The notes under the pieces are model-generated. The model made no database searches, had not been told where the DNA came from, and was given only the letters and a program-made list of their open reading frames with translations. From Herbaspirillum sp. DW155 (lineage in GTDB: Bacteria > Pseudomonadota > Gammaproteobacteria > Burkholderiales > Burkholderiaceae_D), in contig NZ_AP029028.1 in NCBI RefSeq assembly GCF_037076565.1, forward strand, positions 4,712,001 to 4,776,000: 64,000 nucleotides of DNA, read 5' to 3'. The position numbers were made by a program, and so were the translations under genes. Positions within the stretch are counted from its first letter, which is position 1; each line of letters opens with the position of its first letter. Positions 3,546 through 30,797 of the stretch are shown in pieces.

Positions 3546-4346
3546 TCAATGCCGCGCCACCCCCAGATAACTCTCCACGATCTTCTTGTCCGCCGCCAGC
3601 ACCCCGGCTGCACCCTCGCAGACAATCTCGCCCATCTCCAGCACATACCCGTAATCGGCCACCTGCAGGGCCGCGCGCGCATTCTGTTCCACCAGCAAGG
3701 TCGCCACACCGGTACTGCGCAACTGGCTGATGATGGAAAGAATTTCCCGCGTGATCAGCGGTGCCAGTCCGAGGCTGGGTTCATCCAGCATCAGCACCTT
3801 CGGTTTGGCCATCAGCGCGCGCCCCACGGCCAGCATCTGGCGCTCGCCGCCGGAGAGCGTACCGGCAGCCTGCCTGCGCCGCTCCTTCAGGCGCGGGAAC
3901 AGCGCATAGACGAATTCCTGCTGATCCAGATAGCCGGACTCGCCATTGCGGCGCCGCTTGTAGGCGCCCAGCAAGAGATTGTCTTCCACCGTCATGGAGG
4001 TAAACAATTCACGCTTTTCCGGCACCAGCGACAGGCCGCGTGCGACCCGCTCTTCGACTTCCATCTGGCTCACCTCCTCGCCCGCGAAAGCGATATGCCC
4101 GCTGGCCGCCGCCCCCGCTGGCAGTGCGCCCATCATGGCATTGAGCAAGGTCGACTTGCCCGCGCCATTGGGTCCGATGACGGTCACGATCTGGCCGGCA
4201 CGCAGCGACAAGGCCGCCCCGGTCAATGCCGGCACCTTGCCATAGCGGGCCGAAAGAGCACTGACTTCCAGCAGCACGGGGGCGGTGGTGGCGTGGACCT
4301 CGGGCGCGGCGCCGGCAGAGGTCATCATGGTGGCGACGGTGGTCAT
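3546..4346 (-). CDS. Liv-type ABC transporter ATP-binding protein (LivF-like)
   Basis: The 266-residue ATPase carries Walker [10 protein letters not shown] (58-66), signature LSGGE (165-169) and Walker B VLMLDEP (185-191), and is closest to LivF of hydrophobic/aromatic amino-acid importers. The first 22 residues are an Ala/Thr-rich extension. Its ATG overlaps the stop codon of the upstream permease-ATPase fusion (ATGA), so translation is coupled. It is the last gene of the leftward set paaR, binding protein, paaZ, livH, livMG, livF. That context suggests import of phenylacetate or a related aromatic acid instead of branched-chain amino acids. The fold is certain; the substrate is inferred. 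Confidence 0.9.
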   Translation of the reverse strand: MTTVATMMTSAGAAPEVHATTAPVLLEVSALSARYGKVPALTGAALSLRAGQIVTVIGPNGAGKSTLLNAMMGALPAGAAASGHIAFAGEEVSQMEVEERVARGLSLVPEKRELFTSMTVEDNLLLGAYKRRRNGESGYLDQQEFVYALFPRLKERRRQAAGTLSGGERQMLAVGRALMAKPKVLMLDEPSLGLAPLITREILSIISQLRSTGVATLLVEQNARAALQVADYGYVLEMGEIVCEGAAGVLAADKKIVESYLGVARH

Positions 4347-6133
4347 TGGGCTCCTCCCAGATAGGCTTCCAGCACGGCCGGGTGGACTTGGATCTGGGCC
4401 GGCGTGCCCTCGGCAATCTTGCTGCCGAATTCCATGACCACGATGTGGTCGGTCAGTTGCATCACGAAATCCATGTCGTGCTCCACCAGCAGCACCGCCA
4501 TGCCCTCGCCACGCAGTTTGTCGAGCAAGGCGGCCAGCGCCTGCTTTTCCTGCAGGCGCAGACCGGCAGCGGGTTCATCCAGCAGCAACAGGGCCGGATC
4601 GCAACACAGCGCACGGGCGATTTCCAGAATGCGCTGCTGGCCCAGCGCCAGGCTGCCGGCAGGCCGGTCGATCAGCTCGCCCAGTCCCACGCGTTCCAGT
4701 TGTCGCCGCGCTTCGCTGAGGATGCGCGCCTCTTCCTTGCGATTGCCGCGCACCAGGCTGGCGAGGATGCCGCGCTGAGGCGCGAACTCGCCGCGCCGGA
4801 ACGCGCCCATGGCGGCGTTCTCCAGCACGCTCATGCCCGGTACCAGCCGCACGTGCTGGAAGGTGCGTGCAATACCACGGCTGGAGATGGCGCGTGACGA
4901 CAATCCCGCCAGCGACTGCCCGCGATAATTGAGCTTGCCGCTGGTGATGGACAGCACCCCGGTGACCAGATTGAAGGTGGTGGACTTGCCCGCACCATTG
5001 GGCCCGATCAGCCCGACGATCTCTCCGGCCTTGACCGAGAAGCTCACATCATTGACCGCCACCAGTCCACCGAACTGCTTGCGGGCGGCCTCCACCTCCA
5101 GGATCACCTCCCCGCGCACCGGCTTGGGAAGCTGCGTCAGCGGGGCCGCATCCACCGGCAACTGACGCGGCAGGCGGCGTGCGAAGCGCGCCTGCACACG
5201 TGGCCACAAGCCCTCGTTGGCGAACTGCAGGAAGATCACCAGCGCGATGCCAAAGACGATGGCTTCGAAATTGCCGCCCGTGCCCAGCACGCCCGGCAAC
5301 CACTCCTGCAGAAAATTGCTCAGCACCGCCAGCAGGCCCGCACCGAGAAGCGCCCCCCACACATGACCGGCACCGCCCACCACCACCATCAGCAGATAGT
5401 CGATGCCGTACTTCAGGCCGAAGGGCGTGGGATTGACCGCCTGTTGCAGGTGCGCATAGAGCCAGCCGGAAATGCCCGCCAGCACTGCCGCATAGACGAA
5501 GACGACGATCTTCAGCCGGGCCGTGTCCACCCCCATCGCCTCGGGCATCACGGTGCCGAACCTGAGCGCACGCACCGCACGGCCCGCGCGCGAATCGAGG
5601 AAGTTGAGCACCGACACCAGCGCCACGATCACCACGGCCCAGATCAGCAGGTACATCGACGCCCCATTGCCGAACGTGACGCTGCCGATGGCAATGGCGG
5701 GGATGCCATTGATGCCGTCATGCTTGCCCAGCATCTCCAGATTGCCGAACAGGTAGTACAGCGACAGCCCCCAGGCTATCGTGGACAGCGGCAGGTAATG
5801 ACCGGAAATGCGCATGGTGAGCGCGCCGATCAGAAAGGCCGACAATCCCGTGAGCGCAATGCCGGCCAGCAGACCCAGCCACGGCGAGAGCCCGAACTGC
5901 GTGGTCAGATACGCCGTGGTATAGGCACCGATGCCGACAAAGGCCGCCTGCCCGAAGGAGATCAGCCCGGCCACGCCGGTCAGCAGCACCAGCCCCAACG
6001 CGACGATGGCATACAGGCCTACATAGGACAGCAGCGTCACCCAGAACGGCGGCAGGCCCAGCAATGGCAGCGCCAGTACGATAACGAAGAACAGCGCCGG
6101 CACGGCGGCGCGATGCGATGTGAATGCAGTCAT
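4343..6133 (-). CDS. Fused LivM-type permease and LivG-type ATPase of an ABC importer
   Basis: The 596-residue protein joins a LivM-like membrane domain (about 1-315, eight or more hydrophobic segments) to a LivG-like ATPase (about 343-596). The ATPase has Walker [10 protein letters not shown] at 377-385, signature LALGQQR at 495-501 and Walker B LLLLDEP at 515-521. In E. coli these are separate proteins; fusions occur in other bacteria. A GAGGA ribosome-binding site precedes the ATG. The gene starts 10 bp after livH and overlaps livF by four bases, so all three are one transcript. It would form the inner-membrane channel with the LivH-like protein and receive substrate from the binding protein encoded upstream. 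Confidence 0.92.
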
Positions 6134-6143
6134 GGCGGTGTCC

Positions 6144-7196
6144 TCAGGCTTCTTCGTCGATGTGATGGCTGGTCAGCGAGCGCCACAACAGGATGGGGAT
6201 GATGACCGTGAAGACGATCAGTTCCTTGAAGGCACTGGCCCAGAAGGAAGAAAAACTCTCGATCAGTCCGACCGATACCGAACCCAGCGCCGCAACCGGA
6301 TAACTCGCCAGCCCGCCGAAGATCGCCCCCACAAAGCCTTTCAGGGCGATGATGAAGCCCGACTCATAGTTGACGATGGTGAAGGGCGCAATCAGGATGC
6401 CGCACAGCGCGCCGATCCCGGCCGACATCGCGAAGGACAGCTTGCCCGCCTGGTTGATGCCCACCCCCACCAGCCGCGCACCGAGGCGGTTGACGGCAGT
6501 GGCGCGCAAGGCCTTGCCGGTCAGCGTGCGTTCGAAGAAGAGGTAGATCACGGCGATCAGGGCGGCCACCGTCACCAGCACGATCACGCTCTGGCCCGAG
6601 ACCGGGCTGTCGCCGAGATTGAATTGCAGCTCGGTGAAAGGCTTGGTGTTGGTCCCTTCCGGGCCGAACATCAACAGACCCAGCCCGACCATCGCCAGAT
6701 GCACGCCGAGGGAGACGATCAGCAGCACCAGCACGCTCGAATGCGCCAGCGGCTGATAGGCCACGCGATAAATCATCGGTCCCATCGGTACCACGATCAA
6801 CAGCGCCAGCAGAATCTGCCAGGGCATGGCCAGCGCCTGCAGGTCCATATAAAGCGTCAGTCCGTAGAGCACCAGCGGCAGGCCGATGTGCATGACCAGC
6901 AGCAGCGGCAGGCGGCGCAGCAGGCGTGCGCGATTCGCCGCCAGACGCAAGGCGCTGCCCGCCTCCACAGCCAGCGTCACGCCACCGAGCGCTACCAGCA
7001 GCAAAGCGGTGCCGGGGGCATGCCCGTTCTGGATCGCCGCCAGCGTCAGCGCGCCGAAAGCGACGAACTCGCCCTGCGGCAGAAAAATCACCCGTGTCAC
7101 TGAAAACACCAGTACCAGCGCCAGCGACAGCAGCGCATAGATGGCGCCGGTCGTGATGCCGTCCTGGATCAGCACGGTCAGAATGCTCGTATCCAT
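6144..7196 (-). CDS. LivH-type ABC transporter permease
   Basis: A 350-residue very hydrophobic protein of the LivH branch, starting MDTSILTVLIQDGITTGAIY, the usual family opening. It is longer than E. coli LivH because of an inserted hydrophobic stretch at about 60-130. A strong ribosome-binding site (AGGAGGAG, reading left from 7208) lies just before the ATG. It forms the membrane channel with the LivM half of the following fusion protein. The 155-bp gap to paaZ on its upstream side has no clear terminator, so it is probably co-transcribed with paaZ and should be induced with phenylacetate catabolism. Confidence 0.9.
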   Translation of the reverse strand: MDTSILTVLIQDGITTGAIYALLSLALVLVFSVTRVIFLPQGEFVAFGALTLAAIQNGHAPGTALLLVALGGVTLAVEAGSALRLAANRARLLRRLPLLLVMHIGLPLVLYGLTLYMDLQALAMPWQILLALLIVVPMGPMIYRVAYQPLAHSSVLVLLIVSLGVHLAMVGLGLLMFGPEGTNTKPFTELQFNLGDSPVSGQSVIVLVTVAALIAVIYLFFERTLTGKALRATAVNRLGARLVGVGINQAGKLSFAMSAGIGALCGILIAPFTIVNYESGFIIALKGFVGAIFGGLASYPVAALGSVSVGLIESFSSFWASAFKELIVFTVIIPILLWRSLTSHHIDEEA

Positions 7197-7351
7197 TTGT
7201 CTCCTCCTGTCATGACCGGCCGCCGCAGATCGGGCTGCGGCGTGCCGGATAAGCCCGGTTCTTTTCAGAAGTGAACCTTTGGGCTGGGTACCTTGTGTCT
7301 GGCGCGATTCCCGCCAGGCACATGAAGCTTCCTGTCAAAAAACGGGAAATG

Positions 7352-9412
7352 TCACGCGGCCGGTTTCTTGGCCACCAGCGTGAGGATGTCGTAGGAGGCC
7401 ACCAGTTCGCCCTCCTGATTGCTGACCTCCACATCCCAGGCCACCACACCCTGGCCCTGGCCATTGGCATCCTTCTTGTTGCGGTCGATCTTGCGCTTGC
7501 AGGTCAGGCGTGCAGAGAGGGTGTCGCCGATGCCCACCGGCTTGACGAAGCGCAGCGTGTCCAGCCCGTAGTTGGCCAGCACCGGACCGGGCGCAGGCGA
7601 GACGAACAGCCCGGCGGCCGCCGAGAGCACGAAGTAGCCATGCGCGATGCGCTTGCCGAAGGGCGACTGGCGCGCCGCGACCTCATCGAAGTGCATGTAG
7701 AAATGGTCGCCCGAGAGGCAGCCGAAATTGACGATATCGGCCTCGGTGACGGTGCGGCGATGGGTGGTGAGCGAATCGCCGATCTGCAGATCCTCGAAGT
7801 AGTGACGGAAGGGATGGATATCCGACTCACGCACCTGCGCGCCCCGCACGTGCTCGCCGACGACCGCGGCCAGCATGGTCGGCGAACCTTGCACGGCGGT
7901 ACGTTGCAGGTAGTGCTTCACGGCGCGCGAACCACCCAGCTCCTCACCGCCGCCAGCGCGGCCCGGACCGCCATGCTTGAGCTGCGGCAGGGGCGAACCG
8001 TGGCCGGTGGATTCCGGTGCGGCTTCGCGATCCAGTACCAGCAGACGGCCATGCCAGGCCGCCGCCACCGGAATGGCGCGCGCCGCCACCGCCGGGCTGC
8101 GCGTGACCAGGCTGGCCACCAGGCTGCCGCGTCCGCGTGCGGCCAAGGTCAAGGCTTCGTCAAGATCGTCGTAAGGCATGAGCGTGCTGACCGGACCGAA
8201 GGCTTCCACTTCATGCACCGGACTGCCTGGGGAGGTATCGCGCGCCAGCAGCAGCGTGGGCGCGAAGAACGCGCCCTCGGCCACGCCCTCGCCTTGCGGC
8301 TGGAAGCTGCCCTCCGCGCCGAGGATCAGTTCGGCACTCTGCTTCAACAGGGCCACGCGCTCCTGCACGTCGCGCTGCTGCGCCAGCGAAGCCAGCGGGC
8401 CCATGCGCACCGCTTCCAGCGCCGGATCGCCGGTGACGATCTTGGACAGGCGCGCCGCCAGTTTCTCGGCCACCGCATCGAGATGCTGGCGCGGCACGAT
8501 GGCGCGACGAATCGCCGTGCATTTCTGGCCGGCCTTGGTGGTCATCTCGCGCGCCACTTCCTTGACGAAGAGATCGAACTCTTCATCGTGGACCGTCACG
8601 TCCGGACCGAGGATGGCGCAGTTCAGCGAATCGGCTTCGGCATTGAAGGGAATCGAATTGGCGATCAGGTTGGGATGCGCGCGCAGTCTGGCCGCCGTAT
8701 CGGCCGAGCCGGTGAAGGTCACCACGTCCTGCGCCTGCAGCCGGTCCAGCAGGTCGCCGGTGCTGCCGATGACCAGTTGCAGCGCGCCTTCGGGCAAGAG
8801 CCCCGATTGCTGGATCAGGCGCACTGCAGCTTCGGCGAGGTAACTGGTGGCAGTGGCCGGCTTGACGATGCAGGGCATGCCGGCCAGGAAGGTCGGCGCG
8901 AATTTTTCCAGCATGCCCCAGACCGGGAAGTTGAAGGCATTGATGTGCACGGCCACGCCACCGCGCGGTACCAGGATGTGGGTGCCGGCAAAGCGGCCCT
9001 GCTTGCCCAGCGGCAGGGCCGGGCCTTCATGGACCAGGTTGGAGGACGGGAATTCATTGGTGCCGATGCTGGCATAGGTGAACAGGGTGCCGGCGCCGCC
9101 TTCGATGTCGATCCAGCTGTCGGTGCGGGTCGCGCCCGTGTGGGCGGAGACGGCGTAGAGCGTTTCCTTGTGTTCCATCAGGTACTTGGCCAGCGCCTTG
9201 AGGATCGCGGCGCGCTGCTGGAAGTCCAGCGCCATCAGGGCGGGCAGACCCTTCTTGCGGGCGTGTTCCAGCGCTTCGCGGAAATCGATGGCTTCATCGT
9301 GGGTGCTGGCGACGGGGCGGCCATTGACGGCGCTGTGCAGCGCCTGGGACGGGGTTGCGCCGAGCCAGCGGCCGGCGATGAAACTCTGGAGGAGGGGTGG
9401 TCGGGTGGTCAT
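7352..9412 (-). CDS. paaZ: Bifunctional oxepin-CoA hydrolase / 3-oxo-5,6-dehydrosuberyl-CoA semialdehyde dehydrogenase
   Basis: The 686-residue enzyme combines an NAD(P)-dependent aldehyde dehydrogenase domain (about 1-520) with a MaoC-like hydratase domain (about 535-680). The dehydrogenase nucleophile is Cys298 in GQKCT with base Glu259; the hydratase pair is Asp569 and His574 in SGDHFYMH. In the PaaABCE route it opens the oxepin ring of oxepin-CoA and oxidises the resulting aldehyde, avoiding a toxic dead-end. Both active sites are intact and the length matches E. coli PaaZ. AGGAG precedes the ATG. It sits between the binding-protein gene and the Liv permease genes, away from the other paa genes, linking transport to catabolism. 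Confidence 0.97.
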   Translation of the reverse strand: MTTRPPLLQSFIAGRWLGATPSQALHSAVNGRPVASTHDEAIDFREALEHARKKGLPALMALDFQQRAAILKALAKYLMEHKETLYAVSAHTGATRTDSWIDIEGGAGTLFTYASIGTNEFPSSNLVHEGPALPLGKQGRFAGTHILVPRGGVAVHINAFNFPVWGMLEKFAPTFLAGMPCIVKPATATSYLAEAAVRLIQQSGLLPEGALQLVIGSTGDLLDRLQAQDVVTFTGSADTAARLRAHPNLIANSIPFNAEADSLNCAILGPDVTVHDEEFDLFVKEVAREMTTKAGQKCTAIRRAIVPRQHLDAVAEKLAARLSKIVTGDPALEAVRMGPLASLAQQRDVQERVALLKQSAELILGAEGSFQPQGEGVAEGAFFAPTLLLARDTSPGSPVHEVEAFGPVSTLMPYDDLDEALTLAARGRGSLVASLVTRSPAVAARAIPVAAAWHGRLLVLDREAAPESTGHGSPLPQLKHGGPGRAGGGEELGGSRAVKHYLQRTAVQGSPTMLAAVVGEHVRGAQVRESDIHPFRHYFEDLQIGDSLTTHRRTVTEADIVNFGCLSGDHFYMHFDEVAARQSPFGKRIAHGYFVLSAAAGLFVSPAPGPVLANYGLDTLRFVKPVGIGDTLSARLTCKRKIDRNKKDANGQGQGVVAWDVEVSNQEGELVASYDILTLVAKKPAA

Positions 9413-9530
9413 TGGAGACTCCTGATGAGGGATAAGGAATGAACAGTTTCAAGATCGGACGGCAGCTGTTGGAGAACTGCGTGCGCATTGTTCAATGCAT
9501 CCGACGTTGGTCTAAAAAATGCTCCGCTAA

Positions 9531-9636
9531 CCGTTGGACCTGAGGTGGCCCTGCGGGCCGTATCGAAGACGCTGCGGAGCTTGTACCGTCGTCACGCCTT
9601 CGATACGCGGCTACGCCGCTACTCAGGTCGAACGGT
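9531..9636. repeat. Palindromic dispersed repeat, copy 1
   Basis: The copy begins CCGTTGGACCTGAGG and ends CTACTCAGGTCGAACGG, with TATCGAAG and CTTCGATA facing each other inside. It is the most diverged of three copies in the window (others at 25208 and 26987). It fills most of the 258-bp gap between paaZ and the upstream binding-protein gene, where a folded RNA could uncouple or stabilise the two parts of the transcript. Confidence 0.8.
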
Positions 9637-9670
9637 CAGTGGGGGCTGCAAGTGCAATCGCTACAGGCCC

Positions 9671-10816
9671 TCAGGGCTGGTACTGCCAGGCGCCATCAAC
9701 GATCTTGACCATCACCGAAGCCCGCTGATCCAGACCCAGATGATCGGTGGCCGACATGTTGTAGACGCCATGCACGCCCGTGACTTCCTTGGTGGCTTCC
9801 AGCGCATCACGCAGGGCCGCGCGGAATTCCGGCGTGCCCGGCTTGCCGCGCTTCAACGCCACGGGAATGGCTGACTGCAGCAGCACGCCCGCATCCCAGG
9901 CATAGCCGCCGAAGAGCGACACGCTGTCCTTGCCGTGGGCGGCTTCGTACTTCGTGGTGTAGTCCAGCGCGACCTTGCGGATGGGATTGTTGAGCGGCAG
10001 TTGCGCCGCCACCAGAACGGGACCGGCAGGCAGCAGCGTGCCGTCGAGCATCTTGCCGCCCACGCGCAGGAAGTCGGCATTGGCCACGCCGTGGGTCTGG
10101 TAGATCTGGCCCTTGAAGCCGCGTTCCTTCAAGGCGCGTTGCGGCACCACGGCCGGTGTGCCGGAGGCGGCGATGAGGATGGCGTCGGGCTTGGCCGCGA
10201 CCAGCTTCAGGGCTTGCGCGGTAGCGGAAGTATCGTTGGGCGCGAAGCGCTCATTGGCGACCAGTTCCAGTTTCTTGAGACCGGCGGCCTTCTTGAATTC
10301 TTCATACCAGCCTTCGCCGTAGGCATTGGCATAACCGATGAAGGCGATGCGCTGGTAGCCGCGCGCCACCATGTCCTTGGCAATAGCCAGCGACATCATG
10401 ATGTCGTTCTGCGGGGTCTTGAAGACCCACTTCTTCTTCGCATCCATGGGCTCGACGATGCGCGCGGCCGCCGCCAGCGAGATCATCGGCGTCTGCGCTT
10501 CGGCCGCCACTTCGCTCATCGAGATGGAATTGGGGCTGATCGACGAGCCCACGATCACATCCACATTGTTTTCGGTGACGAAGCGGCGCGCATTCTTGAC
10601 CGCCTGCGTGGTATCGGAGGCGTCATCGAGGACGATGTAGTTGATCTTCTGCCCGGCGATGGTGGTGGGCAGCAGCGCAATGGTGTTCTTCTCGGGGATG
10701 CCCAGCGAGGCGGCCGGGCCGGTGGTGGACACGGTGACGCCGACGTTGATGTCGGCGTGTGCAGCGAGCGCGCAGCCGGCCAGGGCCAGCGCGAGCAGGG
10801 GGCGAGCGAACTGCAT
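9671..10816 (-). CDS. Periplasmic substrate-binding protein of Liv-type ABC transporter, phenylacetate cluster
   Basis: The 381-residue protein has an N-terminal export signal (MQFARPLLALALAGCALAAHA) and a type I periplasmic-binding fold like LivJ/LivK (DINVGVTVSTTGPAASLG at the start of the mature part). Cleavage after AHA is likely; LAGC at residues 12-15 could instead act as a lipobox. AGGAG precedes the ATG. It lies 71 bp after paaR in the same direction, and the matching permease and ATPase genes follow beyond paaZ. This order suggests the system captures phenylacetate or another aromatic acid in the periplasm. Ligand identity is inferred only from context. Confidence 0.88.
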   Translation of the reverse strand: MQFARPLLALALAGCALAAHADINVGVTVSTTGPAASLGIPEKNTIALLPTTIAGQKINYIVLDDASDTTQAVKNARRFVTENNVDVIVGSSISPNSISMSEVAAEAQTPMISLAAAARIVEPMDAKKKWVFKTPQNDIMMSLAIAKDMVARGYQRIAFIGYANAYGEGWYEEFKKAAGLKKLELVANERFAPNDTSATAQALKLVAAKPDAILIAASGTPAVVPQRALKERGFKGQIYQTHGVANADFLRVGGKMLDGTLLPAGPVLVAAQLPLNNPIRKVALDYTTKYEAAHGKDSVSLFGGYAWDAGVLLQSAIPVALKRGKPGTPEFRAALRDALEATKEVTGVHGVYNMSATDHLGLDQRASVMVKIVDGAWQYQP

Positions 10817-10887
10817 GAAGGTCTCCTTGATGTGTTGTCATTGTGGTGCTGCATGCCTGCAATGACGCCACCGCTCAAGGGTTCACG

Positions 10888-11508
10888 TCATCGTTTCTTC
10901 TTTCCCGCGCCGTCCAGGCTCACGGCGCCGATTCCGCCAAACAGCAGCTCCGACACGACCACCGCCATGCGTTCATGGGTCAGTTCGCCCTCGGGCTTGA
11001 ACCACATGAACATCCAGTTGATCATGCCGAACAACAACATGGCCAGCGGCTTGCCCATGCGGCTGCGGTCCAGTTCCGGCCGCACCGCGCACATCGCGTC
11101 GGCCACCGCCTTGACCACTTTGCGCTCGCCGTTGAGGATGCGCTTCTGGTCGGCCGGTTCCAAAAAGCGCACGTCCTCGGTCAGTACACGATGCTCGTTC
11201 TGGGCATCGCGGTATTCCTCCACGAAGCGCTGGATCAGCAGGCGCAAGCGCGGCTCGGGGTCCAACTCCTGCTGCGCGACTTCATCGACCAGGCCGCACA
11301 GGCGGTCGATGTGGTCCTCGCAGATGTGCATCAGCAACTGATGCTTGTCGGCAAAGTAGTGATACAGCGAGGCCTTGGACAGGCCGCAGGCCAGCGCCAC
11401 TTCATTCATCGATGTGCCCACGAAACCATTGCGCGCAAACAGGGCCGCTGCCTGTTCGACGATGGTCTCGCGCTGGTTGTCATATCCCGCTGCACGCTTG
11501 CGTGGCAT
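10888..11508 (-). CDS. paaR: TetR-family repressor of phenylacetate catabolism
   Basis: The 206-residue protein has a TetR helix-turn-helix at about 14-60 (motif GFVGTSMNEVALACGLSKAS, then LYHYF) and a C-terminal ligand-binding region. The ATG at 11508 is preferred over an upstream in-frame codon near 11670: AGAGGA lies seven bases before it, and the longer version would be translated from DNA carrying the operator boxes. In other betaproteobacteria TetR-type PaaR represses paa genes and phenylacetyl-CoA releases it; here two palindromic boxes in the divergent spacer fit that role and probably autoregulation. It leads the leftward operon with the ABC transporter and paaZ. Confidence 0.88.
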   Translation of the reverse strand: MPRKRAAGYDNQRETIVEQAAALFARNGFVGTSMNEVALACGLSKASLYHYFADKHQLLMHICEDHIDRLCGLVDEVAQQELDPEPRLRLLIQRFVEEYRDAQNEHRVLTEDVRFLEPADQKRILNGERKVVKAVADAMCAVRPELDRSRMGKPLAMLLFGMINWMFMWFKPEGELTHERMAVVVSELLFGGIGAVSLDGAGKKKR

Positions 11509-11627: not shown

Positions 11628-11645
11628 TTTCTGACCGGTCAGAAA
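11628..11645. promoter_or_regulatory. Perfect 18-bp palindrome, putative PaaR operator
   Basis: TTTCTGACCGGTCAGAAA is a perfect palindrome centred on ACCGGT, 120 bp upstream of the paaR start and just left of the rightward promoter. Size and symmetry suit a TetR dimer. It shares the GACC..GGTC core with the box at 11665-11680. Confidence 0.72.
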
Positions 11646-11662: not shown

Positions 11663-11691
11663 TTGACCAACCGGTCGGTCGAACTTATTAT
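11663..11691 (+). promoter_or_regulatory. Probable sigma70 promoter of the paaY-paaA side with embedded PaaR-like box
   Basis: TTGACC at 11663-11668 and TATTAT at 11686-11691 are separated by 17 bp, a good sigma70 layout. The spacer is mostly GACCAACCGGTCGGTC (11665-11680), an imperfect palindrome with one mismatched pair. A repressor bound there would block RNA polymerase directly. Transcription would begin near 11698, about 60 bases before paaY. Confidence 0.68.
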
Positions 11692-11759
11692 TCCTCAAAA
11701 AACAGCGACAGGCAAATGGTTTTTCCGCGTGGCCGGAAGAGCCGGCAAAGGAGACAGCA

Positions 11760-12362
11760 ATGCCTTGTTATTCGATGGAAGGCGTGATCCCGGTAGTCGA
11801 TGCGACGGCCTACGTGCATCCCACGGCGGTACTGATCGGCGACGTCATCGTCGGGCCCGGCTGCTATGTCGGCCCGGCGGCCTGCCTGCGCGGCGACTTC
11901 GGCCGCATCGTGCTGGAGCGTGGCGCCAATGTGCAGGACACCTGCGTGATCCATGGTTTCCCCGGCCACGCGACGGTGGTGGAAGAAAACGGCCACATCG
12001 GCCACGGCGCCGTACTGCACAGCTGTACCGTCAGGCGCGATGCGCTGGTGGGCATGAATGCGGTGGTGATGGATGAGGCGGTCGTGGGCGAACAGGCCAT
12101 CGTGGCGGCCTGCGCCTTCGTGCGCGCCGGCATGCAGATTGCCCCGCGCACGCTGGTGGCGGGTGTGCCGGCCAAGGTGGTACGCGAGCTGTCGGACCAA
12201 GAGATCGCCTGGAAACAGGAAGGCACCCGCACCTATCACGACCTGGCCCGGCGCAGCCTGCACAGCCTGCGCGAGGTCAGCCCCTTGCGCGAGATCGACG
12301 CCGACCGGCCAGCGCTGGCTGCGCCGATGGTCGAGCCGCTGATTGCGGCGAAGCGGGCTTAG
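11760..12362 (+). CDS. paaY: Phenylacetate degradation thioesterase, gamma-carbonic-anhydrase fold
   Basis: The 200-residue protein is a left-handed beta-helix hexapeptide-repeat protein of the gamma-carbonic anhydrase family, with the metal-binding-type histidines in VIHGFPG and [10 protein letters not shown]. PaaY hydrolyses dead-end CoA adducts formed by spontaneous reaction of ring-opened phenylacetate intermediates, so it protects the CoA pool. AAAGGAG precedes the ATG at 11760. It is the first gene to the right of the divergent control region, separated from paaA by 171 bp. The length and C-terminal helical tail match PaaY better than generic gamma-carbonic anhydrases. Confidence 0.93.
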
Positions 12363-12382
12363 CAGCGGACATAGCAGCGGAC
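12360..12382 (+). repeat. Direct 11-bp repeat and spacer before paaA
   Basis: TAGCAGCGGAC occurs at 12360-12370, overlapping the paaY stop codon, and again at 12372-12382. The rest of the spacer to paaA has a small inverted repeat (GTAAC at 12398-12402, GTTAC at 12407-12411) and repeated CAGTTTT/CATTTTT tracts. No second PaaR-like box is visible. It may hold a second promoter or an mRNA processing site. Confidence 0.4.
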
Positions 12383-12533
12383 TTAGCGGCGAAATTAGTA
12401 ACCGAAGTTACCAGTTTTCATTTTTCAGTTTTTTAAGTATTCAGTTTCAGGCACCCGAAGCGGGCCCAGGCGGCCAGGATCTCGTTCGTCCGTCGTCCAT
12501 CGTCCGGCGTGCCATTTTCCATGGAGAAGCACC

Positions 12534-13520
12534 ATGTATGCACAACTCGTAGAAACCGGACTGTCCAAGGTGCGCAGCATCGAGGACATGTCCCCCGAAG
12601 AGCAGGCCTTCCAGGCACGCATCGATGCAGGCGTGAAGATCGAGCCCAAGGACTGGATGCCCGAAGCCTATCGCAAGACTCTGGTACGCCAGATCTCGCA
12701 ACACGCCCACTCGGAAATCGTCGGCCAGCTGCCCGAGGGCAACTGGGTGACGCGCGCACCCACGCTGGAGCGCAAGGCCATCCTGCTGGCCAAGATCCAG
12801 GATGAGGCCGGCCACGGTCTGTATCTCTACAGCGCCGCCGAAACCCTGGGCGTGTCGCGCGACGACCTGCTGGCCGAGCTGCATGCGGGGCGCGCCAAGT
12901 ATTCCAGCATCTTCAATTATCCCGCCCTCAGCTGGGCCGACATGGGCGCCATCGGCTGGCTGGTGGATGGCTCGGCCATCATCAACCAGATCCCGCTGTG
13001 CCGCTGTTCCTTCGGCCCCTATTCGCGCGCCATGGTGCGCGTGTGCAAGGAAGAATCCTTCCACGCCCGCCAGGGCTACGACATCATGCTGGCGCTGTGC
13101 CGCGGCACACCCGAGCAAAAGCAGATGGCGCAGGATGCGCTGAACCGCTGGTGGTGGCCGGCGCTGATGATGTTCGGCCCCTCCGACGCCGATTCGGTCA
13201 ACAGTGCGCAGTCGATGCAATGGCGCATCAAGCTGTTCTCCAACGATGAACTGCGCCAGCGCATGGTGGACCAGACCATCCCGCAGATCGAATACCTGGG
13301 CCTGACCGTGCCCGACCCCGACCTCAAGTGGAATGCCGAACGCGGCCGCTACGACTTCGGCGCCATCGACTGGGACGAATTCAACAACGTGGTGCGCGGC
13401 AACGGCCCCTGCAACCGCGAACGCCTGGCCACCCGCAAGAAGGCCTACGACGACGGCGCCTGGTTCCGCGATGCGCTGGTGGCGCATGCCGACAAGCGCG
13501 CCGCGCGCAAGGCGGCCTGA
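12534..13520 (+). CDS. paaA: 1,2-phenylacetyl-CoA epoxidase, catalytic subunit
   Basis: The 328-residue diiron oxygenase subunit carries ferritin-like ligand motifs EAGH (Glu91, His94) and EESFH (Glu174, His177). With PaaC it forms the epoxidase core that inserts one oxygen atom into the ring of phenylacetyl-CoA to make the 1,2-epoxide; electrons come from PaaE. GGAGAA lies before the ATG at 12534. It opens the tightly packed set paaABCDE, in the usual order. Length and motifs are normal for the family. Confidence 0.97.
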
Positions 13521-13615
13521 GCCGCCGACACTCCCTTTTTTTGCATCGCTTCATCTCACAACCATGCCAGTGGCCGCCAGCCAAGCACGGCGGCCCGCCA
13601 ACAAGGAAACGCATC

Positions 13616-13900
13616 ATGAGCAAGGAATGGCCTCTCTGGGAAGTCTTCATCCGCAGCCAGCACGGTCTGGCCCATAAACACGTCGGCAGCCTGCATGCCC
13701 CCGATGGCGAGATGGCCATCAACAATGCCCGCGACGTCTACACCCGCCGCAACGAAGGCGTGGGCATCTGGGTGGTGCGCGCGGCCGATATCGTCTCCTC
13801 CAGCCCCGGCGACAAGGCGCCGCTGTTCGAACCGGCCAACAGCAAGGTGTATCGCCACCCGACCTTCTTCCCCATGCCGGCTGAACTGAAGAACCTGTAA
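13616..13900 (+). CDS. paaB: 1,2-phenylacetyl-CoA epoxidase subunit B
   Basis: The 94-residue protein starts MSKEWPLWEVFIRSQHGLAH, the standard PaaB opening. The open frame continues upstream of the ATG at 13616, but AAGGAAA just before this codon and the conserved N-terminus fix the start. PaaB bridges PaaAC heterodimers in the epoxidase complex and is needed for activity in vivo. It lies 95 bp after paaA and 10 bp before paaC. No catalytic residues are expected. Confidence 0.96.
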   Translation: MSKEWPLWEVFIRSQHGLAHKHVGSLHAPDGEMAINNARDVYTRRNEGVGIWVVRAADIVSSSPGDKAPLFEPANSKVYRHPTFFPMPAELKNL

Positions 13901-13910
13901 GAGGCGCACC

Positions 13911-14663
13911 ATGACCGACAAAACCGATTACGTGCGACGCCTGGGCGACAACGCCCTGGTGCTCTCGCAACGCCTCTCCGAATGGTGCGGCAAGGGTCCG
14001 GCACTGGAAGAAGACATGGCCCTCATCAACGTCTCGCTGGACCTGATCGGCCAGGCCCGTCTGTGGCTGGCCTATGCCGCCGAACTGGAGGGTGCGGGCC
14101 GCGACGAAGACCAGCTGGCCTTCCTGCGCGATGCCCACCAGTTCCACAACCTGCTGCTGGTAGAGCTGCCCAATGGCAGCTATGCCGACACGCTGGCACG
14201 CCAGTTCCTCTTCGACGTATGGCATTACTTCCTGCTGGAGGGTCTGTGCGACAGCCGCGATGCCCGCATCGCCGAGATCGCCCAGAAATGCTTCAAGGAA
14301 GTGACCTATCACGTGCGCCGCAGCACCGACCTGATGATCCGCCTGGGCGACGGCACCGGGGAAAGCCATCGCCGCATGCAGGATGCCATCGATGCGCTGT
14401 GGATGTACACCGGTGAACTGTTCGCCGCCGACGCGCTGGATCAGGTCATGCACGCCAATGGCATCGCGCCGGATCTGGGCGAACTGCAGCAGAAGTGGCA
14501 GCAGCACGTCATCGAGGTGATGCGCGAAGCCACGCTGCAACTGCCTGCTGCCGGCCTGTGGATGCAGAGCGGCGGCAAGGCCGGTCGTCATACCGAGCAC
14601 CTGGGCTATCTGCTGGCGGAGATGCAGTTCCTGCAGCGCGCCTATCCGGGAGCGAAGTGGTGA
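13911..14663 (+). CDS. paaC: 1,2-phenylacetyl-CoA epoxidase, structural subunit
   Basis: The 250-residue all-helical ferritin-like protein pairs with PaaA but has lost most iron ligands, as is normal for PaaC. Recognisable stretches are DNALVLSQRLSEWCGKGPALEEDMAL near the N-terminus, read here in two parts (DNALVLSQRLSEWCG and GPALEEDMAL), and GGKAGRHTEHLGYLLAEMQ near the C-terminus. It stabilises the PaaA active site and helps bind the CoA substrate. Its TGA overlaps the GTG start of paaD, so translation is coupled. Confidence 0.96.
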   Translation: MTDKTDYVRRLGDNALVLSQRLSEWCGKGPALEEDMALINVSLDLIGQARLWLAYAAELEGAGRDEDQLAFLRDAHQFHNLLLVELPNGSYADTLARQFLFDVWHYFLLEGLCDSRDARIAEIAQKCFKEVTYHVRRSTDLMIRLGDGTGESHRRMQDAIDALWMYTGELFAADALDQVMHANGIAPDLGELQQKWQQHVIEVMREATLQLPAAGLWMQSGGKAGRHTEHLGYLLAEMQFLQRAYPGAKW

Positions 14664-15193
14664 GCGAGCTCACTGCCTCGGCGCAGGCGCTGCAGGCCCG
14701 CATCTGGGCATGGCTGGAAGCCATCCCCGATCCGGAAATCCCGGTCATCTCGGTGGTGGACCTGGGCATCGTGCGCGAGGTCGAGGTATCCGATGAGGAT
14801 GCCGGGGCCGCGCGCTGCACGGTGGTGATCACGCCGACCTACTCGGGCTGCCCGGCCATGGGCGTCATCGCGCAGGACATCCGCGCTGCACTCAGGCAGC
14901 ACGGACTGGCCGAGGTGGCCATCCGCACGCAACTGGCACCGGCCTGGAACACCGACTGGATGAGCGAGAAAGGCCGCCGCAACCTGCAGCAATACGGCAT
15001 CGCACCGCCGGCGCAGCAGGTCATCGACATCCGCGGCATCAGCCTCAGACGCCAGGCCGCGCCCCAGGTGCAATGCCCGCATTGCGGTTCGATGCAGACG
15101 GTGTGCGTGAGCCAGTTCGGTTCCACCTCCTGCAAGGCGCTGTACCAGTGCAAGGACTGCCGCGAACCGTTCGATTATTTCAAGGCGCATTGA
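14660..15193 (+). CDS. paaD: Phenylacetate degradation Fe-S maturation protein (MIP18/DUF59 family)
   Basis: The 177-residue protein has a DUF59/MIP18-like domain (about 10-110, with IPDPEIPVISVVDLGIV and YSGCPAMGVI) and a C-terminal zinc-ribbon-like part with CPHCGS and CKDC. The best start is GTG at 14660, which overlaps the paaC stop as GTGA; no ATG fits. PaaD is thought to help assemble the iron or Fe-S centres of the epoxidase system. Gene position and both domains match known PaaD. The non-ATG start is the only unusual point. Confidence 0.93.
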   Translation: MSELTASAQALQARIWAWLEAIPDPEIPVISVVDLGIVREVEVSDEDAGAARCTVVITPTYSGCPAMGVIAQDIRAALRQHGLAEVAIRTQLAPAWNTDWMSEKGRRNLQQYGIAPPAQQVIDIRGISLRRQAAPQVQCPHCGSMQTVCVSQFGSTSCKALYQCKDCREPFDYFKAH

Positions 15194-15229
15194 GCCGCGC
15201 TCAATGTTCCAGAACCAAGGCACAACATC

Positions 15230-16300
15230 ATGAACAAATTCTATCCACTGACCATCTCGGGCGTGAAGCAGGAAACGCGCGATACCATCGTGGTCTCCTT
15301 CGACGTTCCGCCCGAGCTGCAGGACACCTTCGCCTATGAGCAGGGCCAGCACCTGACGCTGCGCTCGCAGTTGCAGGGCGAGGAGCTGCGCCGTTCCTAT
15401 TCGATCTGCTCGGCGCGCCAGGACAAGCAGTTGCGGGTCGCCATCAAGCGCGTGCCCGGTGGCCTGTTCTCGAACTGGGCCAATGAATCCTTTGCGCCGG
15501 GCCAGCGCATCGAGGCGATGCCGCCCATGGGCCACTTCAACGTGCCGCTGGACCCCTCCAACCGCAAGCACTACCTGGCCTTCGCGGCCGGCAGCGGCAT
15601 CACGCCGATGCTGTCGATCATCAAGACCACGCTGCTGGCCGAGCCGCACAGCCATTTCATGCTGATCTATGCCAACCGATCCTCGTCCTCGGTGATCTTC
15701 AAGGAAGAGTTGACCGACCTGAAGGATACCTACCTCGAACGCTTCAAGGTGGTCTACGTGATGAGCCGCGAACAGCAGGACGTGGAAATGTTCAACGGTC
15801 GCATCGACCGCGCCAAGTGTGATGCCTTCTTTACTTCCTGGATCAATCTCAGGGACGTCGACGCGGTCTTCCTGTGCGGCCCCGAAGAGATGGTGCAGGC
15901 GGTGACCGAATCGCTGCAGGCGCACGGCATGCCCAAGGCGCAGATCAAGACCGAGCTGTTCGCGGCCGGCACACCGGCGCGCGAGCACGTATCGCGCCCG
16001 GTGGTAGGCAAGAAGGAATGCGAGGTCACCGTGATCGTGGATGGCTATCACAACGTCTTCACCATGGACAAGGAAAAGGAATCGGTGCTCGATGCGGGCC
16101 TCAGGCACGGCATCGACCTGCGCTATTCCTGCAAGGGCGGCGTGTGCGCCACCTGCCGCTGCAAGGTGGTCGAGGGCAAGGTGGACATGGATGCCAACTA
16201 CGCGCTGGAAGACTACGAGATCGCGCGCGGCTTCGTGCTGAGCTGCCAGTCCTTCCCGGTGAGCGACAAGCTGCTGCTGGACTTCGACCAGGACAACTGA
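15230..16300 (+). CDS. paaE: 1,2-phenylacetyl-CoA epoxidase, reductase subunit
   Basis: The 356-residue reductase has an FAD-binding domain (RRSYSICSARQD near 60), an NADP-binding domain (FAAGSGITPMLSIIK near 125) and a C-terminal plant-type [2Fe-2S] ferredoxin domain with Cys301, Cys306, Cys309 and Cys339. It passes electrons from NADPH to the PaaA diiron site. Start ATG at 15230, 36 bp after paaD. paaG begins two bases after its stop, so the run continues as one transcript. Confidence 0.97.
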   Translation: MNKFYPLTISGVKQETRDTIVVSFDVPPELQDTFAYEQGQHLTLRSQLQGEELRRSYSICSARQDKQLRVAIKRVPGGLFSNWANESFAPGQRIEAMPPMGHFNVPLDPSNRKHYLAFAAGSGITPMLSIIKTTLLAEPHSHFMLIYANRSSSSVIFKEELTDLKDTYLERFKVVYVMSREQQDVEMFNGRIDRAKCDAFFTSWINLRDVDAVFLCGPEEMVQAVTESLQAHGMPKAQIKTELFAAGTPAREHVSRPVVGKKECEVTVIVDGYHNVFTMDKEKESVLDAGLRHGIDLRYSCKGGVCATCRCKVVEGKVDMDANYALEDYEIARGFVLSCQSFPVSDKLLLDFDQDN

Positions 16301-16302
16301 CC

Positions 16303-17094
16303 ATGGGCTACCAATCCATCCTCTTCGAGAACCATGACGGCGTGGCCGTCATCACCCTCAACCGTCCCGACAAGCTCAACAGCTTCACGGTGGCCATGCA
16401 TCTGGAATTGCGCGAGGCCATCGCCACCCTGCAGGCCGATCCCACGGTGCGGGTGCTGCTCTTGACCGGCGCCGGACGCGGCTTCTGCGCCGGCCAGGAC
16501 CTGGGCGACCGCGCCGTCAACCCCGGCGACGATGCGGTGGACCTGGGTGAATCCATCGACAAGTACTACGGCCCGCTGGTGAAGTCGCTGCGCGCCCTGC
16601 CCTTCCCGGTGATCTGCGCGGTCAATGGCGTGGCCGCCGGTGCGGGCGCCAACCTGCCGCTGGCCTGCGACATCGTGCTGGCAGCGCGCTCGGCCAGCTT
16701 CGTGGAAGTGTTCTGCAAGCTGGGATTGATCCCCGACACCGGCGGTACCTACTTCCTGCCGCGCCTGGTCGGTACGGCGCGTGCGATGGGCATGGCGCTG
16801 CTGGGCGAGAAGATCAGCGCCGAACAGGCCGAGCACTGGGGCCTGATCTGGAAGTGCGTCGATGACGACAAGCTGATGGAGCAGGCCCGCGCCATGGCCG
16901 CGCACTTCGCCCGCGCCCCGACCCGCGGCCTGGCCGCGACCAAGGCCACGCTGTATGCCAGCCCGGCGCATACGCTGAGCGAGCAGCTGGACCTGGAACG
17001 CGACACCATGCGCGCGCTGGGCCACAGCCGCGATTACCGCGAGGGCGTGAGCGCCTTCCTGGAAAAGCGCGCACCGCACTTCACGGGCCAATGA
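16303..17094 (+). CDS. paaG: 1,2-epoxyphenylacetyl-CoA isomerase
   Basis: The 263-residue crotonase-fold enzyme converts the ring epoxide to oxepin-CoA and also isomerises a later double bond. The oxyanion-hole regions read GAGRGFCAGQDLGDR and NGVAAGAGANLPLACDI, and FCKLGLIPDTGGTYFLPR fits the PaaG branch well. The open frame extends upstream inside paaE, but the ATG at 16303, directly after the paaE stop, gives the normal length and N-terminus. PaaG is preferred over PaaF because it matches E. coli PaaG along its length, including the QLDLERD and SADYREGVSAFL-like C-terminal stretches. Confidence 0.94.
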   Translation: MGYQSILFENHDGVAVITLNRPDKLNSFTVAMHLELREAIATLQADPTVRVLLLTGAGRGFCAGQDLGDRAVNPGDDAVDLGESIDKYYGPLVKSLRALPFPVICAVNGVAAGAGANLPLACDIVLAARSASFVEVFCKLGLIPDTGGTYFLPRLVGTARAMGMALLGEKISAEQAEHWGLIWKCVDDDKLMEQARAMAAHFARAPTRGLAATKATLYASPAHTLSEQLDLERDTMRALGHSRDYREGVSAFLEKRAPHFTGQ

Positions 17095-17095
17095 C

Positions 17096-18634
17096 ATGAG
17101 CGAACTTCAGAACAGCTACGCCCTGCCCGCCAGCGCTGCGGTGGCGGTCATCGGCGCCGGCACCATGGGGGCCGGCATCGCCCAGGTGGCGGCACTCGCC
17201 GGCCATCCGGTGCAGCTCTACGACAGCCGCGAAGGCGGCGCCGCCAAGGCCATCAGCGACATCCGTGCAAACCTCGACAAGCTGGCCAACAAGGACAAGA
17301 TCCCTTCGCAACTGGCCCAGGACGCCTGCGAACGGCTGTCGGTCGCAGGCAGCTTGCAAGACCTGCACGGCGCGCGCCTGGTGGTGGAGGCCATCGTCGA
17401 ACAACTGGCGGCCAAGCAGGAATTGTTCGGCAAGCTGGAAGCCATCGTCGATGCGCAATGCATCCTGGCCAGCAATACCTCCTCGATCTCGATCACCCAC
17501 ATCGGCGCCCCGCTGCGCCACCCCGAACGCCTGGCGGGCATGCACTTCTTCAACCCGGTGCCGCAGATGGGGCTGGTGGAGATCATCCGTGGTCTGGCCA
17601 GCGATACGGCCGTGGTGCAATGCCTGCACGACACCGCGCGGGCGTGGGGCAAGGTGCCGGTGGTGGCCCGCTCGACACCGGGTTTCATCGTCAACCGTCT
17701 GGCCCGGCCCTACTACGCCGAAGCCCTGCGCGTGCTGCATGAGTGCGGCGCGCAGCCGGCCACCATCGATGCCGTCATGCGTGAAGCCGGGGGCTTTCGC
17801 ATGGGGCCGTTCGAGCTGATGGACCTGATCGGACATGACGTCAATTTCGCGGTGACGCAATCAGTCTTCCATGCCTACTTCAACGATCCGCGCTTCACGC
17901 CCTCGCTGATCCAGCAGGAGCTGGTGCATGCCGGCCGCCTGGGCCGCAAGAGCGGGTATGGCTTCTATCGCTACGGCAGCGGCGCCGAGACACCTCAGCC
18001 CGCGACCGAGCCAAGCTTCGATCCGCCCACGGTGCCGCTGCAGTTGTTCGGCACGCATCCGCTGGTGGAAGTGGTACGCGCGCGCTACCAGGGCCGGGTG
18101 GAATACTGCCCCCCGCGTGCCGACAATCTGCTGATGAAGGCCGGTCCCGCCCGCGTCTACCTCACCGAAGGCCGTACCGCCACCCAGCAGTCCTACGACT
18201 ACAACATGCCCGACGTGGTGCTGGTGGACCTGGCGCTGGACTATGCACGGGCCACACGCCTGGGCATCACCCGCGCCGACCAGTGCCGCGACCGCGCCTA
18301 CCAGGTGGCTGCGGGCGTGCTGCAAGCCTGCGGCTTTGCGCTGTCGCCGATGGCCGACGTGCCGGGCATGGTGGTCATGCGCACCGTCTGCATGCTGGTC
18401 AACGAAGCCGCCGATGCGATCAACCAGGGGGTCTGCAGCCGGGCCGACGCCGATCTGGCCATGCAGAAGGGCGTCAACTATCCGCGTGGTCCGCTGGCCT
18501 GGGCCGATGCCATCGGCATCGATACGGTCGCCAGCGTCTTGCGCCAGCTCGGTGCCACCTATGGCGAGGACCGCTATCGGCTCTCGCCCCTGCTGCAACG
18601 TCTGCAAGCTTCCGGAAGGAAATTCCATGAATGA
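17096..18634 (+). CDS. paaH: 3-hydroxyadipyl-CoA dehydrogenase
   Basis: The 512-residue protein has an N-terminal NAD-binding Rossmann domain (GAGTMGAG at 20-27), the catalytic-type HFFNPVPQMGLVEI segment, and two copies of the C-terminal 3-hydroxyacyl-CoA dehydrogenase helical domain. It oxidises 3-hydroxyadipyl-CoA to 3-oxoadipyl-CoA. The ATG is one base after the paaG stop. The length is normal for the two-C-domain PaaH form. Its last eight bases overlap paaI. Confidence 0.95.
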   Translation: MSELQNSYALPASAAVAVIGAGTMGAGIAQVAALAGHPVQLYDSREGGAAKAISDIRANLDKLANKDKIPSQLAQDACERLSVAGSLQDLHGARLVVEAIVEQLAAKQELFGKLEAIVDAQCILASNTSSISITHIGAPLRHPERLAGMHFFNPVPQMGLVEIIRGLASDTAVVQCLHDTARAWGKVPVVARSTPGFIVNRLARPYYAEALRVLHECGAQPATIDAVMREAGGFRMGPFELMDLIGHDVNFAVTQSVFHAYFNDPRFTPSLIQQELVHAGRLGRKSGYGFYRYGSGAETPQPATEPSFDPPTVPLQLFGTHPLVEVVRARYQGRVEYCPPRADNLLMKAGPARVYLTEGRTATQQSYDYNMPDVVLVDLALDYARATRLGITRADQCRDRAYQVAAGVLQACGFALSPMADVPGMVVMRTVCMLVNEAADAINQGVCSRADADLAMQKGVNYPRGPLAWADAIGIDTVASVLRQLGATYGEDRYRLSPLLQRLQASGRKFHE

Positions 18635-19115
18635 GACCGCACTGTCTTTCCCATCGAACGAGATGGAGCCGCAAGCCCTGGCCGAAGCCACGGTGCAGGC
18701 CATGTACCCGCGCGACAATGCGTCGCAGTCACTGGGGATGAAGATCCTCGACGTCGGCCCGGGCCGCGCCCGTATGAGCATGCTGGTGCGCAGCGACATG
18801 CTCAACGGCCATGCCACCTGCCACGGCGGTTTCATCTTCGCGCTGGCCGACAGTACCTTTGCATTTGCCTGCAACAGCCGTAATCTCAACACCGTGGCAT
18901 CGGGTTGCAGCATCGAATACGTGGCACCGGCCCTGCGCAATGACGTCCTGACCGCCGAGGCGCAGGAACGCACGCTGGCCGGCCGCACCGGCGTCTACGA
19001 CATCACCGTGAGCAACCAGGACGGCAAGATCATCGCGCTGTTCCGGGGCAAGTCCTATCGCATCAAGGGCGAGGTGATCGCCGCACTGCCGGCGGCACAG
19101 CAAGGCCGCGCATAA
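18627..19115 (+). CDS. paaI: Hydroxyphenylacetyl-CoA thioesterase
   Basis: The 162-residue hotdog-fold thioesterase has the family signature NGHATCHGGFIFALADS, with His66 and catalytic Asp75. PaaI releases CoA from ring-hydroxylated phenylacetyl-CoA and other dead-end products. The ATG at 18627 overlaps the end of paaH by eight bases and follows GGAAGGAAA; the open frame upstream of it lies inside paaH and is ignored. The N-terminus is about 15 residues longer than in E. coli PaaI. Confidence 0.94.
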   Translation: MNETALSFPSNEMEPQALAEATVQAMYPRDNASQSLGMKILDVGPGRARMSMLVRSDMLNGHATCHGGFIFALADSTFAFACNSRNLNTVASGCSIEYVAPALRNDVLTAEAQERTLAGRTGVYDITVSNQDGKIIALFRGKSYRIKGEVIAALPAAQQGRA

Positions 19116-19158
19116 AAGAACACCGATACCAACAGAGCAACAGAGACAGGAGACCACC

Positions 19159-20499: not shown

Positions 20500-20540
20500 G
20501 GCACGGCCCGCAAACCCTTGATCCCGGAAGAAAGAGACCT

Positions 20541-29102: not shown

Positions 29103-29128
29103 GGTTTTCTCCGTGAAGAACAGAAGCC

Positions 29129-29233: not shown

Positions 29234-29249
29234 GCCGACACGCCTGCAT

Positions 29250-30629: not shown

Positions 30630-30797
30630 GGGCTGTGCTCTGATAAAATGCTGGATTCATTGACCCTGGCGGCCATGCGCGGGTCTTGTGGAGGGGCAAT
30701 TGTAACCTGTCCACTGCGGTTGTCAGGGCAGCCACGCGCCTGCCGTCCCGCCCTCCCCGCCCCGGCCGCAGCTACCATCCAGCCTATCCGCCATCCG

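Follow-up and report, generated by a model that had tools for sequence, protein, structure and literature searches.

A gene unit on the minus strand of a 64,000-nucleotide stretch of Herbaspirillum sp. DW155 (contig NZ_AP029028.1, positions 4,712,001 to 4,776,000; hereafter the window) likely encodes an ATP-driven importer of the Liv/HAAT type for phenylacetate or an aryl-alkanoic acid very similar to it, and phenylacetate itself would be the likeliest ligand of its periplasmic binding protein (BP). The unit, paaR-BP-paaZ-livH-livMG-livF, in which livMG is a livM-livG fusion, is divergent from the phenylacetate (paa) genes paaY-A-B-C-D-E-G-H-I-K-J on the plus strand (11760-21746; Table 1). The importer probably belongs to the regulon of the TetR-family regulator PaaR, which is predicted to bind a palindrome at the divergent promoters. 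A preliminary description of the window had given the same gene content, names and coordinates, all of which were recovered here, and its proposal that aryl acids are imported at the cost of ATP by a system linked to phenylacetate degradation is strengthened by three observations: BP lies in an aromatic-acid subfamily, the linkage to paa genes recurs, and the operator stands before relocated importer genes.

The binding protein and its predicted pocket

The subunit set comprises a Peripla_BP_6 solute-binding protein (SBP), two PF02653 and two PF00005 domains, the make-up of a Liv/HAAT ABC importer (TC 3.A.1.4). By sequence and fold, BP is placed in the aromatic-acid branch of these importers. 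Its best match in the PDB, by sequence as well as by Foldseek, was the R. palustris SBP 3sg0/4dqd (45-46% identity); among structures with a ligand in their title, 4dqd (3-phenylpyruvic acid) is the nearest, and relatives of BP have been solved in complex with phenylpyruvate, coumarate and caffeate, among others. BP is also 44% identical to, and has the same fold as, CouP of the R. palustris p-coumarate importer CouPSTU (RPA1789, RPA1791-1793), and a CouP-like subgroup is indicated both by the SBP sequence and fold and by the fused permease-ATPase subunit at 4343-6133. CouPSTU likewise has one fused subunit (RPA1792; PMC3223731) and lies near the catabolic genes of its own substrate, whereas the window cluster is one for phenylacetate rather than coumarate and carries a TetR-type operator. 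RPA0668 (HbaE), which sits between the benzoate and 4-hydroxybenzoate operons (PMC3223731), and RPA0985 are further Liv-type SBPs for aromatic acids, benzoate or 4-hydroxybenzoate.

According to the accessible text of PMC3610893, the carboxyl group in the CouP pocket is held by Thr102, Arg197 and Ser222 and the 4-OH of the ring by Gln305 and His309. In a sequence alignment these residues correspond to Ser94, Pro193, Ser218, Leu301 and Tyr305 of BP, respectively. Leu301 and Tyr305 were found in 5/5 Herbaspirillum paa-linked rows of the 46-row alignment from which all residue counts were taken, and the missing pair of 4-OH contacts would suit an unsubstituted phenyl ring.

Recurrence of the linkage to paa genes

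Relatives were collected by scanning contigs with BP (142 found, best 80 kept), and all counts refer to the DNA fetched around each. The order paaR-BP-paaZ-livH-livMG-livF was found again in 10/10 named Herbaspirillum loci among these best 80 of 142, so the arrangement is not due to chance; the nearest named BPs, from H. aquaticum and H. huttiense, are 97% identical. Among all 80 relatives, 41 had paa genes in the fetched DNA, and these comprised 24 with livH, livMG and livF (H-MG-F), 16 with none of the three and one incomplete locus. Two of the 16 (L058 and L070) stop <300 bp past BP, which leaves 14 of them informative.

It had been suggested that paaZ is embedded among the importer genes so that uptake and detoxification rise together. 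As a general design this does not hold, since BP-paaZ-H occurred in only 10 of the 24 complete loci, all of them Herbaspirillum, while paaZ followed livF (BP-H-MG-F-paaZ) in 13; the remaining one is a short contig without paaZ. The position of paaZ between BP and livH is thus, as judged from these loci, a Herbaspirillum trait, and any co-expression of uptake with paaZ would be owed to their common operator rather than to where paaZ sits.

Co-occurrence was also counted in 25 Herbaspirillum genomes (G000-G024), with BP matches accepted at E <= 1e-200. BP was found in 12/25 genomes and PaaA above its cut-off in 14, and G018 holds fragments of the cluster only. BP was present in 12/15 genomes with paa genes vs 0/10 without (Fisher p 1.1e-4, or 9.8e-4 when G018 is counted as paa-less; kinship is ignored in both). 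In G006 the contig stops just beyond paaR.

Several cassettes of the same subfamily lie in other settings. The DW155 genome holds two more BP-H-MG-F cassettes (L014, C1:4560500-4580400; L013, C1:1345000-1364900; BP 43% and 46%), one adjoining a CoA ligase, an enoyl-CoA hydratase and a thiolase-like gene (ferulate/coumarate-like by eye) and the other a gallate dioxygenase match and a Rieske oxygenase. Of the cassettes without paa genes, 12/39 (L080, L082, L086, L087, L089, L094, L095, L098, L101, L102, L104 and L105; several with Rhodocyclaceae/Sterolibacterium titles) adjoin genes that, recognized by eye, we take to be mnmE, gyrB, dnaA and parAB. The L054 cassette (0.7-9.4 kb) follows a 2-oxoacid:acceptor oxidoreductase pair, with the alpha subunit above cut-off, and lies beside an aldehyde ferredoxin oxidoreductase match below that family's cut-off, a setting that resembles phenylalanine breakdown in Aromatoleum. 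L063, a contig of a Desulfovibrionaceae metagenome-assembled genome (MAG) with a paa-importer cluster, groups with Burkholderiales in both trees described below and is probably misbinned.

A putative PaaR operator before paa and importer genes

When the window was aligned with 15 Herbaspirillum sequences, the palindrome stood out as GACCRACCGGTCGGTY within a conserved block. The putative 16-bp operator overlaps the -35 element and spacer of the predicted paaY promoter and sits just downstream of the predicted paaR promoter. PaaR of Thermus thermophilus (TTHA0973) is also a TetR repressor of paa genes, and its site in the accessible text of PMC6651687, the 14-bp palindrome AACnAACGTTnGTT, has the same layout as ACCGACCGGTCGGT, from which it differs symmetrically at 4/12 defined bases; that text names no transporter among the targets of the Thermus protein.

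A site matching at least 13/16 positions stood before a paa unit in 32/41 paa-linked loci. In seven of the nine loci without it (L051, L056, L068, L070, L072, L077 and L079) the listed genes start downstream of paaG, and therefore the promoter probably lies outside the fetched DNA. In 39/39 loci without paa genes, no site of at least 13/16 was found directly before BP, the nearest upstream one being 1,685 bp off. Using the reversed pattern as control, we counted sites in 99 loci (1,725,032 bases, with six strains present twice) and found 29 vs 0 at 15/16 or better, and 40 vs 6 at 14/16.

The operator was also found where the importer genes have left the other paa genes. BP-H-MG-F-paaZ forms an operon of its own, away from the rest of the paa genes, in L059 (Tibeticola) and L065 (Burkholderiaceae MAG), with the palindrome 62 and 57 bp upstream of BP, respectively. 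Each of these genomes contains three perfect 14-bp sites, and all six are at paa units (importer operon, paaG-I-K and paaA-B). Once one mismatch was tolerated, the reversed control turned up as often as the pattern or more often (7 and 4 vs 5 and 4), and therefore the perfect matches alone carry weight there. In five genomes with a lone BP in the paa operon, an MG homologue (58-62%) is located elsewhere in the genome. The Roseateles genomes R. violae and R. aquatilis carry a site of 14/16 and 15/16 at 94 and 91 bp, respectively, upstream of the livH match in an H-MG-F operon that lacks BP; in two others, one contig stops at livH and one cassette has its own 46% BP. Split translocators thus carry the site in 2/3 testable genomes, where the control (6 in 1.73 Mb at 14/16) gives a chance expectation of ~0.0003 per 100 bp, a rough value for other genomes. 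In L134, L135 and L136, which come from genomes with a lone BP in the paa operon, the H-MG-F operon has no adjoining BP and is divergent from an enoyl-CoA hydratase gene.

In the DW155 genome, allowing up to two mismatches to the 16-bp operator, the pattern occurred at 4 places vs 54 for the reversed pattern. The only one-mismatch site is that at paaR/paaY; since the other three carry two mismatches and the reversed pattern is commoner, no further PaaR target can be claimed in this genome. An 18-bp perfect palindrome, TTTCTGACCGGTCAGAAA (11628-11645), was considered as a second operator. At up to two mismatches it matches nowhere else in the genome, and in the alignment of relatives some sequences have only its right half and others nothing, so it was not counted. 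Two terminator-like predictions that coincide with the operator palindrome were disbelieved. We placed the importer in the PaaR regulon because the palindrome occurs at the divergent promoters, before the stand-alone importer and before two of the three split permeases, and is absent before BP in the 39 non-paa relatives.

Apparently separate histories of BP and translocator

The BP tree, built from the window and 20/41 paa-linked loci plus other relatives, united all 21 paa-linked rows in one 25-row Burkholderiales clade (100/100) together with 4 non-paa rows, and the R. palustris 3sg0/4dqd SBP was on a long branch outside it. A 36-row tree of the fused MG subunit, which covered nine of the 14 loci with a Variovorax/Polaromonas-type paa MG, grouped six Herbaspirillum MG with the Roseateles-type split translocators plus three further cassettes (100/100) and put the nine Variovorax/Polaromonas-type paa MG into another clade with four non-paa Burkholderiales rows (100/100). 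Forcing the Herbaspirillum and Variovorax-type MG together was rejected (approximately unbiased test, p-AU 3.4e-42; with three non-paa neighbours, 4.7e-6), in a test for which the groups were picked after the tree was seen and L013 and L071 were omitted as long branches. On the simplest reading of these trees, the translocator was apparently swapped while BP and operator stayed constant; two old paralogues with differing losses would leave a similar picture. We give about even odds to the fuller proposition of a phenylacetate importer with a constant BP and PaaR operator and an exchangeable translocator, which would have been replaced at least once (Herbaspirillum vs Variovorax-type) and which in Roseateles would be encoded at another place, still controlled by that operator, while the paa operon keeps BP as its only importer gene.

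Proposed mechanism and competing explanations

In the mechanism that we propose, the periplasmic BP would capture the acid, and LivH, the fused LivM-LivG and LivF would carry it inward, where PaaK would convert it to phenylacetyl-CoA for degradation by PaaABCDE-G-Z-J. PaaR, acting as a TetR repressor on one palindrome between the divergent promoters, would silence enzymes and importer alike, and phenylacetyl-CoA made by PaaK may release it, by analogy with the Thermus PaaR, for which this effector is named in the title of a reference cited in the accessible text of PMC6651687. PaaZ, transcribed from the importer side, would clear the ring-opened product. The sequences show the gene content, the protein family, the recurring linkage, the operator pattern and the phylogeny; we infer the identity of the ligand, the direction of transport, its high affinity, the binding of PaaR, the effector and the single transcript.

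Several observations weigh against this phenylacetate importer under PaaR control. Position 193 of BP is Arg in 40/46 aligned rows and Pro in 3/5 Herbaspirillum paa-linked rows; the carboxylate-binding mode is left uncertain, because Pro193 replaces the Arg197 that holds the carboxylate in CouP, and this loss would be a point against a simple CouP-like mode. The BP subfamily is not confined to phenylacetate, since in 39/80 relatives the fetched DNA, in part made up of short stretches, lacks paa genes. Within the genus, G009 and G011 hold paa enzymes without this BP: in G009 paaR adjoins paaZ and the importer is absent, and in G011 (L114, C7) BP, paaR, paaY, paaE and most of paaZ are gone while livHMGF look whole, which reflects either a decayed paa cluster or a misassembly. 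In L063 and L088, whose listed genes start with paaG, the operator was looked for and not found, nor was it found before livH of the split H-MG-F operon of Pelomonas KK5. The stand-alone importer operons stem from one lineage, L059 and L065 being counted as such because they are close kin (end branches of 0.008 and 0.023-0.025 in the BP and MG trees, respectively). At up to one mismatch in five genomes, the reversed pattern occurred 5 to 18 times vs 0 to 8 for the operator; because the reversed pattern is commoner, whole-genome counts carry no weight and only the sites beside livH were used. Finally, the 258-bp, repeat-carrying gap between BP and paaZ may split transcription of BP from that of paaZ-livF.

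The true ligand could instead be a similar aryl acid whose breakdown leads to phenylacetyl-CoA (phenylpyruvate, phenylglyoxylate/mandelate, 3-phenylpropionate or hydroxyphenylacetate), with phenylacetate secondary. The 3-phenylpyruvic acid complex of 4dqd and the binding of 4-hydroxyphenylpyruvate by CouP (accessible text of PMC3610893) speak for this, as does the Accumulibacter cassette L091, which adjoins paaY and a phenylpyruvate decarboxylase (TIGR03394, 878 bits vs a cut-off of 554.5). We nevertheless consider it unlikely, as the window cassette adjoins paa genes only and the operator links it to the paa regulon. A phenylpyruvate importer in particular was rejected, TIGR03394 being above cut-off in 0/16 Herbaspirillum genomes, DW155 included, although weaker matches to the wider thiamine-enzyme family occurred in all.

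Much less probable is a system chiefly for sensing or retention, that is, for signalling or for recapture of phenylacetate that escapes while phenylalanine or styrene is degraded, and not for growth on phenylacetate from outside. Phenylacetic acid can cross membranes undissociated, and Roseateles-type clusters keep BP in the paa operon with H-MG-F elsewhere; against this stand the full translocator in the window and the split-off translocator with the same operator in two Roseateles genomes.

At the position that we take to be that of the acid holding the ligand amino group in leucine binders, BP has His242 (46/46 aligned rows), 1usg has Glu, and the three LivK-type proteins of the DW155 genome that were aligned have Asp in two and Asn in the third (L148). 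An ordinary branched-chain amino acid (LivKHMGF) importer placed in the paa cluster by accident, which would share the Pfam architecture and subunit set and is the label that some databases give to BP relatives, is therefore rejected as extremely improbable, given the lost amine-site acid, the absence of any score above a Liv NCBIfam equivalog or subfamily cut-off (bits/cut-off: LivF 240/441, LivG 253/362, LivH 68/379, SBP 52/477), the 24% identity between BP and two LivK-type proteins encoded in DW155, and the recurring paa linkage and operator.

Gene layout and other features of the window

Genes were called from coordinates and NCBIfam/Pfam profile matches on the window proteins, with paaB and paaG named by eye from translations; the name PaaR was given by position, no PaaR model matching the protein. 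The score of paaH was slightly below the TIGR02279 cut-off (644 vs 669).

Table 1. Predicted features of the importer and phenylacetate gene cluster in the window
Feature	Position	Strand	Basis
LivF-type ATPase of importer, 266 aa	3546..4346	-	PF00005; nearest NCBIfam LivF 240 bits, below 441-bit equivalog cut-off
Fused LivM-LivG, permease and ATPase in a single chain, 596 aa	4343..6133	-	PF02653 32-301, PF00005 360-522, PF12399 572-595
LivH-type permease, 350 aa	6144..7196	-	PF02653; under LivH equivalog cut-off
PaaZ, bifunctional ring-opening hydrolase and aldehyde dehydrogenase	7352..9412	-	TIGR02278 991 bits vs cut-off 563
Dispersed palindromic (REP-like) repeat in BP-paaZ gap	9525..9660	-	Genome matches and RNA fold
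Periplasmic binding protein (BP), predicted aryl-acid binder, 381 aa	9671..10816	-	PF13458 (Peripla_BP_6); nearest PDB 3sg0/4dqd/CouP
PaaR, TetR-family regulator, 206 aa	10888..11508	-	PF00440 and PF17932; reading frame from 11508
Sigma70-like promoter TTGACC-17-TATTAT towards paaY-paaJ	11663..11691	+	Sequence prediction
Putative PaaR operator GACCAACCGGTCGGTC	11665..11680		Palindrome; conserved in 16-sequence Herbaspirillum alignment and other Burkholderiales
Sigma70-like promoter TTGCCT-17-AATAAT towards paaR and importer	11687..11715	-	Sequence prediction
paaY	11760..12362	+	TIGR02287 323.6 bits vs cut-off 319.6
paaA B C D E G H I K J	12534..21746	+	NCBIfam matches; translations for paaB, paaG

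The short spacers previously ascribed to the importer side were found at three of the five junctions (paaR-BP 71 bp, livH-livMG 10 bp and a 4-bp overlap of livMG and livF) and not at BP-paaZ (258 bp) or paaZ-livH (155 bp); one transcript from paaR through livF is plausible. With window positions 9425-9665 as query, 66 matches were found in the DW155 genome, self included, and the predicted RNA fold of 9525-9660 had -70.8 kcal/mol (z -6.3). The BP-paaZ gap ranges from 72 to 276 bp in Herbaspirillum relatives, among which the repeat seems to vary. Repetitive extragenic palindromic (REP) elements after binding-protein genes alter expression ratios, and the REP-like repeat might shift that of BP vs paaZ/livH.

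A Fic-domain protein (2427-3491, +) adjoins the end of livF. Elsewhere in the window, a long open frame (55344-57803, -) has a second Liv-type binding-protein domain (Peripla_BP_6) in its last part, and a 1149-aa open frame (28494-31943, +), in which only the final ~280 residues match an SRP54-type GTPase (FtsY-like), is followed by an ABC ATPase.

Relation to known uptake systems

Liv-type importers of aromatic acids are already known from CouPSTU and Hba (PMC3223731; accessible text of PMC3610893). For a paa-linked, PaaR-controlled Liv importer, no description was found in the accessible open-licence literature, and the main texts of a 2026 paa-cluster survey (PMC13186573) and of two reviews (PMC9493321 and PMC4498308) contain no words starting with 'transport' or 'ABC'. 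The permease PaaL and PaaM of Pseudomonas likewise serve phenylacetate uptake beside paa genes (accessible text of PMC3224230) but are not ABC proteins; the importer genes of the window all encode ABC subunits, with no single-chain permease or outer-membrane protein of the PaaL/PaaM type among them, the rest of the genome not having been searched for PaaL. The earlier statement that E. coli takes up phenylacetate through PaaL/PaaM had to be dropped, both genes being absent from the E. coli W cluster in the accessible text of PMC3224230, and in that of PMC2653477 they were found only in P. putida among the genomes of a 2009 survey. Fitness data were collected in PMC9007349 for a set of strain-substrate pairs in which both phenylacetate and Herbaspirillum seropedicae figure, its accessible text not stating which strain went with which substrate, and that of PMC4440368 reports that naringenin raises paaBC of H. 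seropedicae and does not mention the importer.

The route of phenylacetate uptake in betaproteobacteria seems largely without an assigned gene. If the importer reading is true, a transporter called 'branched-chain amino acid' in some databases would be re-annotated across several Burkholderiales genera, and one operator would govern both the uptake and the breakdown of a single compound.

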